From: Aotearoamyces nothofagi
Lineage: Eukaryota; Ascomycota; Leotiomycetes; Leotiales; Tympanidaceae
DNA: 64,000 nucleotides
Reading direction: 5' to 3'
Assembly (NCBI GenBank): GCA_015345905.1
Contig: JADDTR010000029.1
Coordinates: 207,808 to 271,807, forward strand
How positions within the stretch are numbered: the first letter of the stretch is position 1; every line of letters starts with the position of its first letter. Under the pieces are notes generated by a model, which saw only the letters and a list, made by a program, of their open reading frames with translations, was not told where the DNA came from and did not search any database. Positions 12,772-61,320 of the stretch are shown here, in pieces. A program made the position numbers and the translations under genes.

Positions 12772-13856
12772 ATGGATTTCGCCTCTCTAATGTCGAAAGA
12801 GATATCCAAATCCAAAAGTCCTCAGTCCTCAGAACCTGCGAAGAAATACCAAAAGCGGTCAGACGTCGAAGCCGAACGTCGCGCCGCATACCTAGCATCC
12901 CAACATGCCACAGAAGCCGAGAAAGAAGCCAAAGCTGTGCAGAAGCGGAAGCGTGAAGAAGAAGAGTCAATAGCCGCGAAAGAACGTGAAGAGAAGCGCC
13001 GCCGGCTTGCAGAGGAGTCGAGGAAACGGAGAGAGGAGGCGGAAAAGGCAGAAGAGAAGGCAAGGCGGAAGAGGCTTGGCCTGCCAGAGTTGGTGGAGGA
13101 GGAAGTCGAAGAGGAAGCTGTAGAAGATGATATCAAGGACGAGGAATTGATAGAGAAGTTGCGTGAGATGGGCGAGCCGGCACGGCTGTATGGGGAGAGT
13201 CATAAGCAACGATTGAAGAGGTTTAGGAAGTTGGGCATTGTCATGACGAAGGGACCGATACCGACGAGCCTCGAACTGGTGGACGAGAAGGACATGAAGG
13301 TTGATACTGTACCGGATGCGTCAGATGTGGAGGGGAGGAAATATCTTTTCCGAAAGCTGGCAAGCTACTTTACTATGGTGCTGAGGGAATGGGAGGCGGC
13401 TTTGGACAGGGAAGAGAAGAGGGACACGTTTGCGAGCAAGGCGGCGTACAATGCCATGGTACAGAGTAAGGAGAATATGACACCGGTATGTTCACAGGAG
13501 ACTCTCTTTGAGCCAAGCTGACATAAATGCAGCTGTTCCGCAAGTTCGAGAAAGGCGACCTTGACGACGGTGTACTGGAACCAATCGTCGAGATTGTCAA
13601 AGCAGCTCAAGAACGACGCTACGTCGACGCAAATGACGGGTACCTTCGGCTCAGCATTGGGAAAGCAGCGTGGCCCATTGGAGTGACTATGGTTGGTATT
13701 CACGAGCGTAGTGCACGAGAGAAGCTCCACGAGAGTGATAAGGGACACGTTATGGGTGATGAAGTGACGAGGAAGTTCCTGCAGAGTATCAAGAGGTGTC
13801 TGAGCTTTGCACAAGTCAGGTGGAAGCCGGATGATATTAGGCAGTTGATGGGATAG
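12772..13856 (+). CDS. prp18: Pre-mRNA splicing factor Prp18
   Basis: Exons 12772-13485 and 13533-13856 (47-nt intron GTATGT..TGCAG, phase 0) give 345 aa, close to the human protein (342). Prp18 is a U5-associated factor of the second splicing step in the nucleus. The N-terminal part (MDFASLMSKEISKSK, then a long charged E/K/R coiled-coil) and the PARLYGESHKQRLKRFRKL segment (a PRP4/PRP18-type motif about residues 140-160) are visible. The C-terminal helical Prp18 domain includes YFTMVLREWEAAL, FRKFEKGDLDDG, the conserved loop-like GYLRLSIGKAAWPIGVTMVGIH stretch, and KRCLSFAQ. The start is taken at MDFASLMSKE; an upstream in-frame extension to 12661 has no family resemblance. Confidence 0.95.
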
Positions 13857-19784: not shown

Positions 19785-22556
19785 TCAATGATCATGCTCA
19801 AATCCTGATTGTCCCAGCCCTAATCCAATGTCCTTTGCTCTCCCCTTGAGTACCGCCTCAAGTGCACGTCCAACGGCATTCAGATCGCCGAGCAGGGTAA
19901 CGTGACCGCGGTCACTTCTGATCCTTCCACCTTTAACGCAATGATATCCCTCTGGCAACATCGCTTCCTTGGCTAGACATACTCCGTCGCCGCTTGCGAA
20001 CGCTAAATCATCGTAGACATCGGCGCACGGAATACCATCCCTTCCATCAACCTTTGCAGCGTAAACCGTTGGGATAGCTTTGTTATAAATTACCGCGAAC
20101 GGAGGGTACCGGTTTGCCCTTTCGTGCGCCGCATTATGGGCTAGTTCAATCTTGAATTGCTTGATTTCAGGAAGGACTCGACCCAAGTAAGCCAATGAGG
20201 CTGGTCGTGACAAGGTTACGGTGGTAGAAACAGAAGAGTTAGTACTCTGGCCCCGACTGACGGGATTTTGCATATTCCCTATCTGAGGAGCGAGGGAGCG
20301 ACCAGTTACGCCAATATCACGTATCGCATTAGCTGCGCGAGCGGCTGGATTCGGCTCAGGCGGCTGTGATGACTGGCCTTTACCTTGTTTGGCAAGCGCA
20401 GTTGAGGATGCCGATGTTGACTGAGATGCTTGAGAGAGCTTTTTGAGAGCAGCGTTCGATGATTTCCTTCCAGGAAGTTGAAGATTGGGTAAGCTGCCTG
20501 CTCGAAAGATGTGGGCTAGAGCACCGGTGGGTTGGGCCTTAGGAGGCAATGGTGGATCTGTAACAGGGGACCATCGGTATTTTATCCAGTCATCAACATT
20601 AAAAAAATCTACAAGGTAGGACTCCTTTGTTTTCTGATCGATGAATCCATACCCATCCAAAGGCAGGAGTAAAAAGCTTGTACGTAAGGTAAAATTGACT
20701 TGAGCCGTCAAGACACGAGAGCTGAGAAGAACTGGGTCTCCGTTTCGCAGAGGACCAAGGATATTGATACATGACTGCGGAACTCCAGGATAAATAACGC
20801 CAGAAAATAGCTCAGGCCGTTTGTTTACAACGTGCCGTGTAATCAATCCACCTAGGCTGTGTGCAATGACAAGAGCACCGGTCTCCTTGCCAACAGGCTT
20901 GTTCGATGGGAGCGTTTCCAAGAACTCGGTGAGTTTTCTACTCAATAAATGTGGACTGAGTCTCCAATCATAGCCGTAATCCCAAACTCGTAATGTCCCA
21001 TTTTTTGCATTTTCACTCTCTTGCAGCTTCCTAAAGAGTCGCCTCGATATGTCAACAGGTCCAACATTGGTGATCATTCCAGAAGGGAAAATATGTTCTT
21101 CCATTCTTTCTTCGTCTTCCGGTTCGAGTCCAACCTCCATGTTCACTTTACGGATATTCAGTCCAACTTTTACAGGAACCCATAGTTGACGATGCGGCGG
21201 CTTTGCTGATCGAAGGATCGAGCCCCTATAGCCGCCCATAATAACAATATCTCCGGTCAAGTAAGGCAAGACATGATCAAGAACGCTAGTATTTGGCCCA
21301 TCGGGCACGGAGCGCAGGGTTGTAGTCGCTGCTTCGGGCCCGCTTTTTGAACCTTTCGTGGTACCAGTAGTAACTGTCGGGCTGGAGACCACAGATGCCC
21401 TTTTCTTTGCGTAACCTGGTAAAATACCTTTCCCTACGTTAGCATCACTCTTTGACTTTGTGGGCTGAGCTCCACTACTGAAAGCAGAGGCAAAATTCAT
21501 GGTAAAGTCGAAATTGGGCATACTGGGCATATTTGGCATTGTCGGTAATCTAAAGCTTGATCTGTCTTGAAAAGAATCCCTAATAGCTTTGACTCTAGAA
21601 TTGACCATTTCGTGGTGGTCTTCAAATCGTGTATCATCGCCCAATGATGAAGTTCGTGAGAGTGAGTGGTAAAGAAGAGAGTCGTCTGAAGCAACCCGGC
21701 GGATGGGAAGTCCTTCACCATAACCAGATTCTGATGATAAATCCCTAGTAGTATTATCGAGAGTGTTTCCATCATGCGCGCCCTCCGCGGGTGTCCCTCT
21801 TCTTGGTATGGATGCGGAAGTTATGGGTGGAGTTGGTGAATTTGGAGGCGATGCGTCAAAGCTTTTGCCTGAAACCGTAGAAGCTGTATTCTTTACCCGG
21901 TTTGCACTATTGGATGAAAAAATTGTCGTGGAGGGCATGTTGGGAATAAGGCTTCCCTTAGGCAGGGAAGGTAACATTTTCTTGAGAGCGTCTGCACTTC
22001 CTGAAAATGATCGACGTTTGGTAGGAGCGAGGGCATCTCTTAGAGCCGATCGAGTTGCCTCCGGGCGATATATGATGAGAGGTTTAGGACCCGCCTGCCA
22101 AGGGGTTGGAAATCCCGAGTCTTGTATTTCGGGAGACGGTAGTTTCCCAGGTGAGGTGGCTGGGTCACTTCCCCATGACCCTTCTTGTGGTCCATCACCC
22201 CCCAAAATCTCACTAAGCCTTACTGCAGAATTTGGGGGTGTATCGTCTCCATCACTCTCGAACAGACCTCCTCCCTCCAAATCGTCCATAGCCGCAGCCT
22301 TCTCCGCCGCAGGAGTTCTGACAGACGTCAGTCGAGTCGCAGCCTGACTGATCGAGACTTGAAAGATAGACTCCGCATCTTCATCTGATATATTGGCAAT
22401 GCTCAAGACCTCCTCCCCGTCCGACTCGTCATCATCCTGCGGGCCTCCTAGAGACGGGCCAAGTGGCTCTTTTCGAGGCGATCTGGAACAATCTTGTTCA
22501 TCTGTAACTATAGCCGAGGGCCCAGGAATAATATCGGTGCTTGGCATCGCTGCCAT
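19785..22556 (-). CDS. LCAT-like alpha/beta-hydrolase (putative phospholipase/acyltransferase)
   Basis: A single 923-aa exon. The first about 420 residues are Ser/Pro-rich, acidic in places and probably disordered. The enzyme part then begins (VLDHVLPYLTGDIVIMGGYRGSILR), followed by the LCAT-like block LRVWDYGYDWRLSPHLLSRKL and the nucleophile elbow AHSLGG with Ser about 567. Candidate partners of the triad are Asp about 857 in GDGVCL and His about 885 in GHVTLLGD. A second disordered Ser/Gln-rich insert lies between elbow and C-terminal residues (about 670-780). LCAT-family enzymes act on the acyl groups of glycerophospholipids; the substrate here is unknown. No signal peptide or membrane segment is seen, so it is likely cytosolic or peripheral. 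The ATG at 22556 is the first in frame. Confidence 0.85.
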   Translation of the reverse strand: MAAMPSTDIIPGPSAIVTDEQDCSRSPRKEPLGPSLGGPQDDDESDGEEVLSIANISDEDAESIFQVSISQAATRLTSVRTPAAEKAAAMDDLEGGGLFESDGDDTPPNSAVRLSEILGGDGPQEGSWGSDPATSPGKLPSPEIQDSGFPTPWQAGPKPLIIYRPEATRSALRDALAPTKRRSFSGSADALKKMLPSLPKGSLIPNMPSTTIFSSNSANRVKNTASTVSGKSFDASPPNSPTPPITSASIPRRGTPAEGAHDGNTLDNTTRDLSSESGYGEGLPIRRVASDDSLLYHSLSRTSSLGDDTRFEDHHEMVNSRVKAIRDSFQDRSSFRLPTMPNMPSMPNFDFTMNFASAFSSGAQPTKSKSDANVGKGILPGYAKKRASVVSSPTVTTGTTKGSKSGPEAATTTLRSVPDGPNTSVLDHVLPYLTGDIVIMGGYRGSILRSAKPPHRQLWVPVKVGLNIRKVNMEVGLEPEDEERMEEHIFPSGMITNVGPVDISRRLFRKLQESENAKNGTLRVWDYGYDWRLSPHLLSRKLTEFLETLPSNKPVGKETGALVIAHSLGGLITRHVVNKRPELFSGVIYPGVPQSCINILGPLRNGDPVLLSSRVLTAQVNFTLRTSFLLLPLDGYGFIDQKTKESYLVDFFNVDDWIKYRWSPVTDPPLPPKAQPTGALAHIFRAGSLPNLQLPGRKSSNAALKKLSQASQSTSASSTALAKQGKGQSSQPPEPNPAARAANAIRDIGVTGRSLAPQIGNMQNPVSRGQSTNSSVSTTVTLSRPASLAYLGRVLPEIKQFKIELAHNAAHERANRYPPFAVIYNKAIPTVYAAKVDGRDGIPCADVYDDLAFASGDGVCLAKEAMLPEGYHCVKGGRIRSDRGHVTLLGDLNAVGRALEAVLKGRAKDIGLGLGQSGFEHDH

Positions 22557-23535: not shown

Positions 23536-23664
23536 GCCGGAATGGCGCAGTGGTATGTTTTCCACTCCTGAAGATTACTTCGGGATATCGAGTATTAACG
23601 TGTCAATAGGTAACGCGTCGCACTTGTAATGCGAAGATCCCCAGTTCAATTCTGGGTTTCGGCA
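23536..23664 (+). tRNA. tRNA-Thr (anticodon UGU) with 57-nt insert in the D-loop
   Basis: Without the insert 23553-23609 the gene folds as a perfect 72-nt tRNA: acceptor GCCGGAA/TTTCGGC with discriminator A, D-arm from GCGC, anticodon stem TCGCA/TGCGA with loop CTTGTAA (anticodon TGT, reads ACA), and T-arm CCCAG/CTGGG with loop TTCAATT. The Pol III A box (TGGCGCAGTGG) and B box (AGTTCAATTC) are intact, and a T5 terminator follows. No intron is present at the canonical 37/38 site. The D-loop insert is described separately. No stem of the tRNA body shows decay, which argues that the gene is used. Confidence 0.9.
23553..23609 (+). other. 57-nt intron-like insert inside the tRNA D-loop
   Basis: The insert starts GTATGT (perfect fungal 5' splice site), has TATTAAC as a branch-point-like sequence 11-16 nt before its end, and ends AATAG. 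Removing it exactly from GT to AG leaves the standard D-loop AGTGGTAA. It also contains a 7-bp hairpin, CCTGAAG..CTTCGGG, with loop ATTA (one G-T pair). The GGTA sequence occurs at both ends, so a target duplication or introner-type insertion is equally compatible with the ends. Confidence 0.75.
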
Positions 23665-23670
23665 GACAAA

Positions 23671-23682
23671 TCTTTTTCTTTT
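23671..23682 (+). terminator. Pol III terminator of tRNA-Thr
   Basis: A T5 run followed by a T4 run, separated by one C, begins 7-9 nt after the tRNA 3' end, the usual place for RNA polymerase III termination. Confidence 0.8.
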
Positions 23683-24011
23683 GGTGATCTCTTTTGGTGG
23701 TTTCATGCTTTTTTTGTGTTTTTGTTGTGTTTTTTTTGTTTCGCCTGAATAAGCGGAACGGAGAAAACGCGGGGTATCACCATTAGACCTAATTTAACAG
23801 TTGGGATAAGCCACCCAGCAGAATAGGACCGTCTCTCTATTCTCGCCATGACCTAATGTGATATTTTACTTGAGCTTTGGTCCTTTTTTCAGATGTTGTT
23901 CAACACATCTAACATGTGGTTAAGTCCATCTTGGACCCTGAGAAGTTGTATGATATACATTAGGGATCGCTATCTTAATCATAATCATAGACCTCATAAA
24001 CCAATATCGAC
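23683..24011. other. Intergenic region, T-rich on the left
   Basis: About 330 bp between the tRNA terminator and the 3' end of the myosin light-chain gene. It has T-rich stretches but no gene or repeat. Confidence 0.4.
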
Positions 24012-28443: not shown

Positions 28444-29446
28444 ATGTCATTCAAAACTACAGCAACTATCGCTTCTTTTGGAGGAAAACTCCTTAAGCTC
28501 ACTCACAATGCGCATACTACAGGCACTGAAATGGCCCTGAACTTGTATCTCCCGCCTCAAGCCTCTCAACACAAAGTCCCTGTCCTTTTTTACCTCGCTG
28601 GCCTTACGTGTACAGGCGATAACGGAGCCGAGAAAGGATTCTTCCAATATGGCGCAAGCCAAAAAGGCATAGCTGTTGTGTTTCCCGACACAAGTCCAAG
28701 TACGTCTAAGCCCTGTTTCTACTATTAAATCACACCTAATCTAGTATAGGAGGACTTAAAATACAAGGCGAAGATGACGCATATGACTTCGGTTCCGGTG
28801 CGGGGTTTTACATTGATGCAACAAAAGAGCCGTGGTCAAAGAACTACAACATGTACAGCTATATCACCTCCGAGCTCCCCAACGCTCTCTACAACGAGTT
28901 CTCTGAACTGGATAGCTCCAGAGTCAGTATTACCGGCCATTCAATGGGTGGTCACGGCGCCTTGACATTGTTCTTGAAGAACCCAGGAAAGTATAAGAGT
29001 GTCAGTGCCTTTGCGCCAATCAGTAATCCGAGCAAGGCACCGTGGGGAGAGAAAGCCTTCAACGGGTACCTTGGCGATAATAAGGAGCAATGGAAAGAAT
29101 GGGATGCGACAGAGTTAATTAAGAAGTGGAAAGGAGACTTGGATGTGCTGATAGATGTGGTGCGTTCCTAACTGTTAACATATAAAAGCCAGTATATTAA
29201 CAGTCTTAGGGAATGAATGACAACTTTTACAAGCAAAAACAACTTCTCCCAGAAAATTTCGTCCAGGCCGCCAAAGAAGTGGGCAAGAGCCAAGGCGTGG
29301 TGGTGAGATATCAAGATGTAAGATGCTTGTTGGCGCACTAAATACTCTTGCTGACCTGGGAATAGGGCTATGATCACAGCTACTACTTTATTTCCACATT
29401 CTCGACCGACCACATCAACCATGCCGCTAAATACCTCTTTGCATAG
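28444..29446 (+). CDS. S-formylglutathione hydrolase (esterase D family)
   Basis: Four exons, 28444-28699, 28750-29159, 29210-29317 and 29366-29446, give 284 aa, the usual length of the family. The enzyme hydrolyses S-formylglutathione to formate and glutathione, the last step of glutathione-dependent formaldehyde disposal in the cytosol. Splicing restores [19 protein letters not shown], a hallmark stretch, and [13 protein letters not shown]. The serine-hydrolase elbow [10 protein letters not shown], the Asp segment DVGMNDNFY and the His segment GYDHSYYFI supply the catalytic triad. The third intron falls just before GYDH. No targeting signal is evident. Confidence 0.95.
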
Positions 29447-50872: not shown

Positions 50873-52288
50873 ATGTCAACAGCACTCTACAGCAGGGTAG
50901 CAATCTCTAAGCTAGCGGGTAACAGGCTAGCTGGAACGTCAGGACCTTGTTTGAAATGTCGGCACCGGTTTCACAGCAGGGCTAGGGTTAAAGGTAAGCT
51001 TAATTGTTATGACTTGCGTTGCTACAACTGACTCCCTTGTTTAGAGAATGATATTGTGCTACTGAGGAAGAAAGGCGACGCATCTGCAACACCAATCCTC
51101 ACGAAGCCTCTCCGTACTACTGGTTGTATACATACACCTCGAGGATCAATTGATCAAGTCAGTCTTATTGGCAAAGGCATTCGCGATGTTGTATCTACGA
51201 GCAAGAAGGTCGAGTATCGAATACACCAACCGTCGTTGGCCGAATATGTTATATTCTCTCCACGATTGGTCACACCTGTGAGCTCTTACCTGAAGTCCTT
51301 TAGGACGTACTGTGCTGATCATATGCCCCAGTAGGTATATCCCGCAGATGCAAATTTGATTGTTTCGTTATTGGATCTTCATCCCACAAACGTGGATCAA
51401 GATGGACAGACAGATCGTCTAGAGATTTTTGAAGCTGGCACAGGACATGGAGCCTTGACTCTCCATCTTTCACGCGCAATACAAGGAATGAACGGGTCCG
51501 GGCCGCCTCTGCCGTCCCAACAGCCAACCCAGCAATTGGCTAATACGGAATCGCGGTCTATAGAGCCAGAAAGCACCACCTCTGACGAAGACTTACCTGT
51601 GGCGGCCGAGCTCATCACTGATATTGACTCGCAAGCAAGCGAGGAGGTGTACCGGGCCTGGCTAGAACAGCGCCGGGCGGTCGTACACACATTGGATACC
51701 TCCGCTCATAATTCTAAGCACGCGCAAGGCGTGGTGCGAAACTTTCGTCACGGCTTATATTATCCTAATATTGATTTTCATGTGGGAACAATTGGGGAAT
51801 ACCTTTCAAAACGACTGGAAATTACACCAGACCCGTTCCTTGAGCATGCAATCCTGGACCTTCCAGCATGCCACGAATACTTGGAAATCATCGGACGTGC
51901 TTTGAAGCCGAATGGCTCATTACTTGTATTCTGTCCAAGCATTACCCAGATCAATACTTGCGTTGCGACAGTGAAGGGTAAGATACTACCACTTCTGTTA
52001 GAAAATGTACTTGAGCTGGGTGCTGGCGTCGGAGTTGGAGGAAGGGAGTGGGACATTAGGGCTGTTAAGCCGCGCGCACTTGTGAAAGCCGAGGAGGAGG
52101 CTAGGAAATCAAGAGAGTTAGAGGCTTTGGATTCAACGGGAGGGGAAGTTTTAGAAGATGTTGTGAATACTACCGAAAACACCACGCCAAAGGGGAGTGG
52201 GTGGGAAATGATTTGCAGACCTAAGGTTGGAGGAAGGGTCACCGGTGGAGGATTTCTGGGGTTGTGGCGACGAATGGAACAGTACTGA
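50873..52288 (+). CDS. Mitochondrial Trm61-like tRNA (adenine-N1) methyltransferase
   Basis: Exons 50873-50993, 51045-51277 and 51335-52288 give 435 aa; introns are 51 and 57 nt. The N-terminus (MSTALYSRVAISKLAGNRLAG) lacks acidic residues and looks like a mitochondrial presequence. The next segment, VYPADANLIVSLLDLH created by the second splice, then EIFEAGTGHGALTLHLSRAI with SAM motif I, and NIDFHVGTIGEYL and HAILDLPACHEYL, match TRMT61-type enzymes, which make 1-methyladenosine at position 58 of the T-loop; the mitochondrial form in animals is TRMT61B. A Ser/Glu-rich insert follows motif I. The ATG at 50873 is preferred to an upstream GTG/TTG-containing extension. Family membership is clear; position 58 as target is inferred. 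Confidence 0.82.
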
Positions 52289-57640: not shown

Positions 57641-58188
57641 ACCTAATTCCTAGAGAGTATATATATCCAATTTCTAGAGAGTATATACACCTAATTTCTA
57701 GAAGTGTATAATCCTAATTTCTAGAAAGCAGTATATATCCAATTCACTCAATTTCTAGAAGTGTATATATCTAATTCCTAGAAAGTGTATACTTCTATTT
57801 CTAGGAAGTGTATACATCCAATTTACTTAATTCCTAGAGAGTGTATACTCCTATTCCTAGGAAGTGGTATATATCCAATTCACCCAATTCCTAGAAGTAT
57901 AGGAATCTAATTTATAGGAGTATAGAGACCCAATTCCCAGGAGTATAAAGACCCAGTTTGTAGAAGTATAGGGTCCTAATTCCCAGGAGTGTAGAGACCC
58001 AATTTATAGAAGTATAGACACTCAATTTACAGGAGTATAGAGACCCAATTTCCAGGAGTACAAGAACCCAATTTATAGAAGCATAGGAATCTAATTTCCA
58101 AGAGTATAGAAACTCAATTTATAGGAGTATAGGGATCCAATTCCTAGGAGTATAGGAACCCAATTTACAGGAGTATAGGGTCCCAATT
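57640..58188 (+). repeat. Expanded 22-25-bp minisatellite inside R690
   Basis: More than twenty degenerate units of the type CCAATTCCTAGGAGTATAGAG. Copy C has only about three such units at the equivalent place and copy A has none clear, so this array is an expansion of a segment internal to the repeat family. Confidence 0.8.
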
Positions 58189-58874
58189 CCTAACACTAGT
58201 ACTCTGGTATTATACTATAATACCAATTTTTTACTATAGAAGATTTAAGATATAGTCTATACAGGCACCTATCGATATTATACTATAATACCAATAACCC
58301 TAAGAATTTCAAAGTGGTCCTATAGGCCCTAGAATTTAGGGCCTGAATATACTCAATAGTGCAGTTTCAATGCCGCTCTCAGAATTAGTGTACCTACAAT
58401 GGTTGTTGAGTTATTCATGTATTTAGTTCTTAGGGTTGGCTCTCCTTCGGTCGCGTGTACACTACCGAGTATATACACCGAATTCCTGAATGGGGTTGCC
58501 TGAGTATACAGGCACCCAATTCCTAGAGAGCGTATATACCCAATTCCTAGGAAGTATATATACACCCAATTCCTATCTCTATAACCCAGCGGATTATATA
58601 TAATCTACACTAAGGCCTATACAAAAAATGTTGGTATACATGTAGCTGCTAATGTATCATGTCGGATCTGTATACAAATGCTATAGTAAGTTACTATAAG
58701 GTAATGTAAAGGTCTTGGCACTTATTAGGTACATGAAATTCGAAGGAGGTATAGACATCCAAATCCACCTAATTTGCCTAAGTAACACCCTTTGTACAAC
58801 TTCTTCGACATTTACAAGTATGCACCTTGGATCTCCAGCAGTGTCTATCCTTAAACAACTCAATTCATCGAATT
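58189..58874 (+). repeat. Repeat family R690, copy C
   Basis: A second full copy (about 686 bp) starting CCTAACACTAGTACTCTGG. Its palindromes have lost the central CG (TATTATACTATAATA). It includes about three units of the minisatellite that is expanded beside copy B. The sequence after 58874 has a further, more diverged partial repeat of the 3' part (about 59020-59160). Confidence 0.85.
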
Positions 58875-59365
58875 ACAATGAATATTTACCTAGTGGTATA
58901 TATTAAAGTACTGTATCTTATTGTAATTTACTATATATTACAATAGCTTATAGTAACTTACTGTAAGGTACAGCGAGAATAACTGCAGTTATAGGATGTA
59001 TACAATTCTAAGGACTATATACATCCCAATCTATATAATTTGCTTAAGTAATACATTTTATACAACTTATTCGATATTTACAAGTATATATATTGAAACC
59101 CTAGTAGTCTATATACTTCAATTCATTGAATTACTCTGAAGATTTACCTAGTAGAGTGTGATATATTACAATAACCTATTGTAAGATATAGTATATTATA
59201 GTAACTTACTGTAAGATACTGTATATCACGATAGCCTACTGTAAGATACTGTATATTACAATAACCTACTGTAAGATACTGTATACAACACTTAGACTCT
59301 TAGCGAAGATCAATCGCTGCTGGTCCTATGATTCACTCCTTTGCTATATCTCTGTAGTATACTGT
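58875..59365. repeat. Degenerate AT-rich repeat DNA with TTACTGTAAGATACTGTAT words
   Basis: Contains a diverged partial copy of the R690 3' end (about 59020-59160) and five or more copies of a unit of the form AACCTACTGTAAGATACTGT (59165-59285). A single ATAACTGCAGTTAT palindrome is at 58979-58992. No gene is seen. Confidence 0.7.
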
Positions 59366-59645
59366 ACTTGATAACTGCAGTTATAGTATATTGTATAGGC
59401 ACATGATAACTGCAGTTATAGCACGTCGAATAAGCGCTTGGTAACTGCAGTTATAGCACGTTGTATAGGCGCTTGGTAACTGCAGTTATAGCACGTCGAA
59501 TAGGCTCTTGGTAACTACAGTTATAGCATGTCCAGTAGGCACTTTATAACTGCAGTTATTACATGTCATATAGACACTTTATAACTGCAGTTATTACACG
59601 TTAGGTAGGCACTTTATAACTGCAGTTATTATATATCAGGTAGGT
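59366..59645. repeat. Array of ATAACTGCAGTTAT palindromes, 35-bp period
   Basis: Eight units of 35-36 bp, each with a 14-bp palindrome (G/ATAACTGCAGTTAT) followed by a spacer such as AGCACGTCGAATAGGC. The palindrome is nearly invariant (one copy has ACTACAG), whereas spacers differ between units. It lies just beyond the 3' end of the helicase pseudogene. Confidence 0.9.
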
Positions 59646-60089
59646 ACTCTCTCTATATTAGAGTCAAAAAATCGATTGTCTAAAAGCCAAATAGGTATCT
59701 AACAATGTCTAAAACAGCCAACTTCTAATCTATAATACTATCTATAAAACAACTTACCCTCCCTACTTCAATACACTATTCTACATCTATACAACTGGTG
59801 TACTACCTCTTTTTTAGAGAAGGCTCACCCTCTGCTATACTATACACTGCTCTTGCAGGCCTCTTTCGTTTCCTACCTGCCTCTTCAGCTGCCTCTTCTA
59901 AGGCTGGGCCTTCTGCTATTTCGGTGTCTGAATTTGGTAGCTCTGAGAGCAGGCTTGACAGTAAGGAACCAGCCTCCTTATCATCATCAATATCAGCGAC
60001 AGCATTATTGAGCTCTTCGATGTCACCACCAGTGACATCAATACCGAGCTGGTTGACCTCAGTAGCAAGGCCAACAATATACAGCTCTT

Positions 60090-60300
60090 CGACCTCAGTA
60101 GTAGGGCCAGCAATAAGAGGCTCCTCTACTGCAGTAGGGCCAGCAACAACTGGCTCCTCTGCTGTAGCAGGGCCAGCAACAACAGGCTCCTCTGCTGCAG
60201 TGGGACCAGCGACAACTGGCTCCTCTGCTATAGCGGGGCCAGTAACAACAGGCTCTTCTACTATAGCGGGGCCAGCAACAATAGGCTCTTCTGCTATATC
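60090..60300 (-). repeat. 33-bp coding repeat, EEPVVAGPTAA units
   Basis: Six to seven tandem units encode an 11-residue motif (EEPVVAGPTAA and variants) in the C-terminal tail of the helicase pseudogene. The frame is still open here, so this exon has escaped stop codons. Confidence 0.85.
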
Positions 60301-61016
60301 CTTCATTACAACGTCTAATAACACTAGTCAGTATATCACCCTAATTATATAAACTGCAGTTAATAGACCTACCTTCTTCGCCTTCTATAGCCGCTATTCT
60401 TCTCTTCTCTATTGCCTCTGTCTGCTTTGCCCGTTCGATGGTGCCAGTCTTAGTAGTGGCGGTTGTCTTATTCGCCTTTAGGCCCTTGTCCTTCTCTAAA
60501 CAAGTACTATCCTGCTTCAGCTTATCCTTGGTATACAAGTCCAGGCTGCCCCATTTTATATAGGAGCATCGCTGGCCTAGTATCTTCCTTACCAGTTCCT
60601 CGGCATTGCCTGATATCTCCTCAGCAACCTTGCTCTTGAACCTTGCCTCTCCGGCAAGCTAGGCAACCATCTTGACAGAAGCTCTTGCCTGTAATACCTG
60701 GTTATATAAATAGTTGCAGGTCACGATGTAGACATTCTGAACTTCCGTCTGCTCTAAGCGATGGATCCGACCAATCGTCTGTAGGATTGTGTTTATATTA
60801 TTGGCCATGTCTATGATAATAGTATAATGGCATACCTCCTATAGATTAACATCCAGTGAGCTGGTTTGGAAATTCGTAACCAGAATATCCATTGGTGCCT
60901 TCGGGTCATTGAATGTTCGGATCGTCTTGTATCGATCAATTTGCAAGTGTATAGAGCGGAGACTAAGGACATTAAGTCCGAGGTTTGTAAGAAAAGCTTC
61001 TAAGACCCTATATACT

Positions 61017-61320
61017 AGTTAGTCAAAAAGCCGGCTCTTATAACTACAGTTATCAAAGGCAGGGAGGTCTTATAACTGCAGTTATAGAAGGCAGGCTCTT
61101 ATAACTACAGTTATAGAAGGTGGGCTCTTATAACTGCAGTTATAGAAGGCAGGCTCGGCTCTTATAACTGCAGTTATAGAAGGTAGGCTCGGCTCTTATA
61201 ACTGCAGTTATCGAAGGCAGGCTCTTAGAACTATAGTTATCAAAGGCAGGAGGGTCTTATAACTGCAGTTATAGAAGGCAGGCCCCTATAACTACAGTTA
61301 TCAAAGGTATAAACTTACTA
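61017..61320 (-). repeat. Intronic array of CTGCAG palindromes, 29-34-bp period
   Basis: Nine units of the type TTATAACTGCAGTTATAGAAGGCAGGCTC. On the minus strand the array sits between a GTAAGT donor (about 61320) and a GTATATAG acceptor (about 61010), that is, inside an intron between the two helicase domains. The core palindrome is the same as in the array at 59366-59645; some units carry ACTACAG or ACTATAG, single transitions. Confidence 0.85.

Follow-up and report, generated by a model that had tools for sequence, protein, structure and literature searches.

Introns of tRNA genes are usually removed by the tRNA endonuclease and a ligase, and mRNA introns by the spliceosome. Ectopic introns in eukaryotic tRNA genes are described, in the passages available of two papers, for the red alga Cyanidioschyzon merolae and for nucleomorphs (PMC4090602, PMC3978253); the D-arm introns of red algae and nucleomorphs that a preliminary description of the present DNA had mentioned are among them. 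For the green alga Ostreococcus lucimarinus, passages of the same papers report ectopic introns at 27/28 in permuted tRNA genes (PMC4090602, PMC3978253).

Introns of the mRNA type also occur outside mRNA genes. The U6 RNA of Schizosaccharomyces pombe, a Pol III RNA, has an mRNA-type intron that is removed by the spliceosome, as stated in the parts available of PMC8917221 and PMC10484740. Several intron insertions into U6 in fungi are indicated by a title cited in PMC5832005, and U2 as a further non-mRNA intron host by a title cited in PMC2586383. In lichens, spliceosomal introns of rDNA are removed, also in yeast after transplanting, according to the accessible part of PMC8527467. No nuclear tRNA gene with an intron of the spliceosomal type was found in the literature searched, a body that leaves most subscription journals outside its coverage, and spliceosomal introns in tRNA genes are absent from the passages available of PMC8450103, PMC10228655, PMC2586383, PMC4390854, PMC13130702, PMC13148404 and PMC5499181.

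The window, that is, the whole stretch of 64,000 nucleotides that was analysed, holds a gene that appears to combine these two themes. Read directly from the sequence, it is a 72-nt tRNA-Thr(UGU) gene on the forward strand (23536-23664), split in its D-loop, between positions 18 and 19, by a 57-nt insert. The interruption follows gene nucleotide 17, which is G18 in tRNA numbering, and does not fall at 37/38, the canonical position of tRNA introns. The features are as follows.

23536-23552, + strand: tRNA-Thr(UGU) exon 1, 17 nt (5' strand of the acceptor stem, U8, 5' strand of the D-stem, D-loop to G18)
23553-23609, + strand: intron-like insert, 57 nt, in the GT-AG register (GTATGT ... TATTAAC ... 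CAATAG)
23553-23558, + strand: putative 5' splice site GTATGT, a hexamer found identically in two of 11 window introns
23593-23599, + strand: putative branch site TATTAAC, at 10 nt from the insert end; same heptamer in the window intron 29160-29209
23607-23609, + strand: putative 3' splice site TAG, the first AG past the branch site
23610-23664, + strand: tRNA-Thr(UGU) exon 2, 55 nt (remainder of the D-loop, starting with G19; anticodon arm carrying TGT; T arm, 3' strand of the acceptor stem, discriminator A)
23673-23677, + strand: T5 run, likely Pol III terminator; first T-run past the gene, 8 nt after its end

Once the two exons were joined, ARAGORN read the 72-nt form as a clean tRNA-Thr(tgt), with an acceptor stem of 7 bp (one of them G-U), a D-stem of 3 bp, and anticodon and T-stems of 5 bp each; the anticodon loop is CTTGTAA, the T loop TTCAATT and the discriminator A. 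The tRNA body shows no visible damage after removal of the insert, and cloverleaf and anticodon are intact. The preliminary description had claimed a sound tRNA-Thr(UGU) and a normal D-loop after removal from GT to AG, and the regular cloverleaf of the joined form agrees with both; the 57-nt insert that it had described, beginning with GTATGT, containing TATTAAC and ending in TAG (AATAG), was read in the sequence as stated.

The unjoined gene gave no tRNA call at the locus when ARAGORN was run with introns off. With anticodon-loop introns on, the only place in which the program looks for them, the gene was miscalled as Leu(caa) or Arg(cct), which is clearly wrong. The Rfam tRNA match covers only 23600-23656, with 30.9 bits for a gathering score of 29. 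Since ARAGORN misses or miscalls the interrupted gene, similar genes may be hidden elsewhere.

The edges of the insert are ambiguous: a 4-base direct repeat, GGTA, allows five registers (starts 23552 to 23556) that give an identical product. Among these, the register that starts at 23553 is the only one with GT...AG.

The splice signals of the insert were compared with those of local introns. A scan of the window with an intron pattern returned 54 matches on the two strands, no excess over 10 shuffles (17 to 44 matches per strand), and the reference introns were therefore taken from Pfam-supported genes. A simple search for codon and splice signals had yielded 22 gene models with 41 introns; eight spliced proteins were compared with Pfam, and 11 of the 41 introns were kept. 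Ten of them lie inside a Pfam domain: Aminotran_3, Forkhead, Prp18, Esterase (three introns), Peptidase_M18, Metallophos (two introns) and MFS_1. The remaining one falls where the first of two EF-hands ends. Apart from the three Esterase introns, splicing led in every case to a longer or better Pfam match than the unspliced pieces; the Forkhead domain, for instance, scored 45.2 and 36.2 bits in two unspliced pieces and 96.4 bits as one spliced match. The Esterase gene was entered as the last 345 residues of its model, which is probably made of two fused genes.

With a weight matrix from these 11 introns, the insert scored 19.59 bits in total (donor 8.56, branch 6.69, acceptor 4.35), a rough figure, the matrix being small (11 of 41 introns) and the introns having been proposed by a gene finder that uses similar signals. 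Nine of the 11 reference introns score no higher than the insert, the introns being scored leave-one-out and the insert with all 11. Across the local introns the donor ranges from 1.76 to 8.90 bits, the distance from branch site to intron end from 7 to 10 nt (10 nt in the insert), and the length from 45 to 58 nt (57 nt in the insert); TATTAAC is shared with one of the 11. A Markov chain based on the intergenic DNA of the window then supplied random 57-mers, each inserted at one of four D-loop sites: a GT..AG register was possible in 0.93% of 200,000 of them, and a single one of the 200,000 matched the splice-signal score of the insert. Over the whole window and both strands, 11 GT..AG segments of 44 to 65 nt, the insert included, score at least as high as the insert. 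Such signals are not rare window-wide; the improbable part is that they coincide exactly with the edges of the insert in the tRNA. The spliceosomal nature of the insert is well supported by these sequence comparisons, and we judge it highly probable that the insert is a spliceosomal intron by origin, whether it is used or not.

Several searches bear on where the insert may have come from. The 64-kb window contains no second copy of it (best BLAST E-value 2.0), no second match, with three mismatches at most, to its first 21 nt, and no further copy of the tRNA body (best BLAST E-value 0.76). Compared with the 11 local introns, the insert has no similarity beyond that of shuffles, the observed score being reached by between 37 and all of 300. 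Within the 64-kb window there is no sign that the insert is mobile. The preliminary description had listed an 'introner-like' spliceosomal intron among its options: the spliceosomal signals stand, and the single copy in the 64-kb window gives no indication of an introner-like spread. A partial duplication of the D-arm was rejected as the source, as only GGTA aligns and all of 1000 insert shuffles match exon 1 equally well.

The GGTA present at both edges may be a target-site duplication, or it may be due to chance, because an intron must start with GT and end with G, and the tRNA supplies G and GTA at this place; G and GT are thus also expected from the splice-site context. The intron could have been transferred by reverse splicing and then recombination; alternatively, it could have arrived by a DNA insertion with GGTA as the duplicated target.

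Control searches were made in prokaryotic and viral contigs. The exact anticodon-arm pattern was found in no stretch of the viral contigs and in none of the prokaryotic genome contigs, and a degenerate anticodon-arm pattern in at least 120 and at least 119 stretches, respectively. When the anticodon- and T-arm pattern was used, 234 of the 239 matches listed from prokaryotic and viral loci lay within an intact tRNA-Thr(tgt) of 72 to 78 nt; this pattern marks tRNA-Thr(UGU) reliably. The other five listed matches comprise one at a locus end and four whose 60 nt of upstream sequence show no D-arm, and none of the five resembles a D-loop insert. These four loci (L016, L074, L115 and L169), which have the anticodon and T arms of a tRNA-Thr(TGT), may each be what remains after the integration of an element into a tRNA gene. 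A pattern combining D-loop and intron hit two viral-contig stretches, and removing the putative intron gave no tRNA in either.

For transcription, we take the A box to be 23543-23553, its last G being supplied by the first G of the insert, and the B box to lie in the T arm of exon 2 (23610-23664), both according to the box consensus. As the first G of the intron replaces the G19 that ends the A box, both internal promoter boxes would be whole in the unspliced gene, merely further apart. Past the tRNA, a T-rich repeat, TTTTTTTGTGT (23709-23739), has runs T7, T5 and T8 that could back up termination. A T4 run is also present within the insert, near its start (23558-23561), and could stop some Pol III transcripts; this run and the insert hairpin are features that could hinder expression. 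The preliminary description had pointed to the hairpin, of 7 bp: it is present, with at least 7 bp, and is ordinary, since 773 of 5000 random 57-mers have one. With about 15% of random inserts so equipped, we discarded the hairpin as a special signal.

The 129-nt precursor has a predicted fold of -42.8 kcal/mol (z -2.96). In this fold, the mean unpaired fraction is predicted as 0.78 for the donor, 0.72 for the branch site and 0.87 for the acceptor, versus 0.41 overall; when acceptor, anticodon and T arms were forced, the predicted values were 0.78 for the donor, 0.78 for the branch site and 0.90 for the 3' splice site. At the donor, the first G is predicted to be paired (0.01 unpaired). According to the folding model, the insert hairpin would shorten the effective distance from donor to branch site, a point that we counted against splicing. 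A pairing of CGTGT (23599-23603), from the 3' end of the insert, with ACGCG (23613-23617) of exon 2 is possible and would give the precursor a stand-in D-stem; the Rfam alignment of the D-arm uses nearly the same bases, in the interval 23599-23617. Such a pairing arises in 1250 of 100,000 random inserts; here it may have come about by chance, or it may be a slight sign that the precursor retains some structure.

The gene content of the window includes FKH/FHA, SPA, Afi1, Whi5 and Prp18, a set that points to an ascomycete fungus. The PRP18 splicing-factor gene, with Prp18 and PRP4 domains (12772-13856), is situated some 10 kb away from the split tRNA gene, a closeness that is probably coincidental. 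At 51335-52288, the GCD14 family of tRNA methyltransferase subunits is matched weakly, below its cut-off. Dense tandem repeats with periods of 23 to 66 bp occupy 57645-58575 and 59162-61307; a palindromic core, ATAACTGCAGTTAT, is found in two of these arrays. The repeats also give a sub-threshold Rfam match to tsr25. The second tRNA that ARAGORN called in the window, at 61134, is a tandem repeat and not a tRNA.

Taken as a whole, the locus is best explained by a U2-type spliceosomal intron in the D-loop of a nuclear tRNA-Thr(UGU) gene that would be transcribed by Pol III, freed of the intron by the spliceosome and used as a tRNA; we give this reading a probability of roughly 0.6. Pol III would transcribe the gene, with its intact A and B boxes, up to the T5 terminator, and GT-AG splicing of the precursor by the spliceosome would take out the intron; the D-arm would form after the removal, and the spliced tRNA-Thr(UGU) would be put to use. 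Two features speak for a tRNA in use, its undamaged body and the splice signals. In our judgement, splicing into a used tRNA has even odds or slightly better. Whether maturation of the tRNA depends on the spliceosome, the mRNA-type intron of the D-loop being excised from the Pol III precursor before the D-arm forms, appears to us evenly balanced.

The main rival is that the gene is a silenced copy, a recent insert, derived from an intron or not, having broken one of several tRNA-Thr(UGU) genes without productive splicing. Passages of PMC4090602 describe insertions in the D- or T-arm of tRNA genes in various eukaryotes, which mostly affect a single gene out of many synonymous ones and are presumed to make pseudogenes of them, and the T4 run inside the insert points in the same direction. 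However, the tRNA body bears no visible damage, and a random insert would reach the splice-signal score once in 200,000 draws. A dead gene has no reason to retain such signals, although a very young one derived from an intron could; we consider silencing a serious possibility, less likely than use of the tRNA. An artefact of assembly or sequencing is hardly credible, as a chimaera would be unlikely to place GT..AG and a branch site so precisely where the tRNA is interrupted.

Two further readings accept an intron and assign it differently. In one, the tRNA splicing endonuclease would cut out a tRNA intron of a non-canonical kind, comparable to the D-arm introns of C. merolae and perhaps to those of nucleomorphs. 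Such D-arm introns do exist in both, as seen in passages of PMC4090602 and PMC3978253, and many of those in the nucleomorph of Guillardia theta have no defined bulge-helix-bulge (BHB), according to the part available of PMC3978253. At the present locus, a 4-bp BHB core, with bulges of 2 to 4 nt, is absent from all five registers, and a BHB-type tRNA intron was rejected on this ground; the test is lenient, a relaxed core being present in 2308 of 5000 random inserts that were each examined in four registers. The yeast enzyme is moreover reported, in the passage available of PMC4033280, to cut strictly at 37/38. With no BHB core and an insert away from 37/38, the tRNA splicing endonuclease is an unlikely agent, and its action would leave the splice signals unexplained; we regard this origin as very improbable. 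Between the kinds of intron that the preliminary description had put forward, the score of 19.6 bits and the signals at the very edges favour the spliceosomal one, seated in a Pol III gene, and the missing core and the ordinary hairpin disfavour a new endonuclease intron. The splice signals could also belong to a Pol II transcript crossing the tRNA, in which case the Pol III tRNA would not come from the spliced RNA. Spliceosomes normally work on Pol II RNA, and the left neighbour, a gene model at 19785-22556 on the minus strand, points away from the tRNA, so that a divergent transcript could run towards it. However, no gene model spans the locus, and the T-run and the internal boxes fit Pol III; the chance of this reading is slimmer still.

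If the spliceosomal reading is true, the tRNA-Thr gene would cross the divide between tRNA and mRNA splicing, and the non-mRNA hosts of such introns (U6, U3, rRNA and U2) would be extended to tRNA. The supply of one threonine tRNA would be coupled to splicing capacity, and tRNA genes would be a landing site for mobile spliceosomal introns. The gene would also offer a small system in which point mutations could test the action of the spliceosome on a Pol III transcript and the gain of an intron in a structured RNA.

Among the known systems, as far as the available parts of the papers cited describe them, C. merolae and the nucleomorphs share with this locus an intron in the D-arm, there in tRNA genes of an algal nucleus or of a nucleomorph (PMC4090602, PMC3978253). 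The C. merolae introns are attributed to the tRNA endonuclease and a BHB (PMC4090602), whereas the tRNA-Thr insert has no BHB core and has spliceosomal signals. In Guillardia theta, the insertions measure 3 to 24 nt and their removal is not understood (PMC3978253), compared with 57 nt here. Fungal introners resemble the insert in that a ready-made intron would have been inserted, here with a 4-base direct repeat, but their families have many copies (PMC4457414, PMC9860276) and the tRNA-Thr insert is single in 64 kb.

Closer in kind are the structural RNAs of fungi, again as given in the accessible passages. The U3 snoRNA has normal spliceosomal introns in the vast majority of the Pezizomycotina analysed (PMC5832005); it differs in that the host is a snoRNA and the insertion region is widely shared, with experimental proof for two species only (PMC5832005). 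The rDNA of ascomycetes and lichens likewise carries mRNA-type introns in a structural RNA that is not made by Pol II; there, the host is a Pol I rRNA and splicing is demonstrated (PMC8527467), whereas in tRNA-Thr we infer it. The U6 gene of S. pombe is similar in having a spliceosomal-type intron within a fungal Pol III RNA gene (PMC8917221, PMC10484740), but U6 is itself a spliceosomal RNA with reported splicing, and the host here is a tRNA whose splicing is predicted from its signals. The account of the U6 intron by reverse splicing relies on nearness to the catalytic nucleotides of U6 (PMC10484740) and is not applicable to tRNA-Thr. Spliceosomal introns in structural RNA genes being already known, the novelty of the present locus would lie in the tRNA as a new host.
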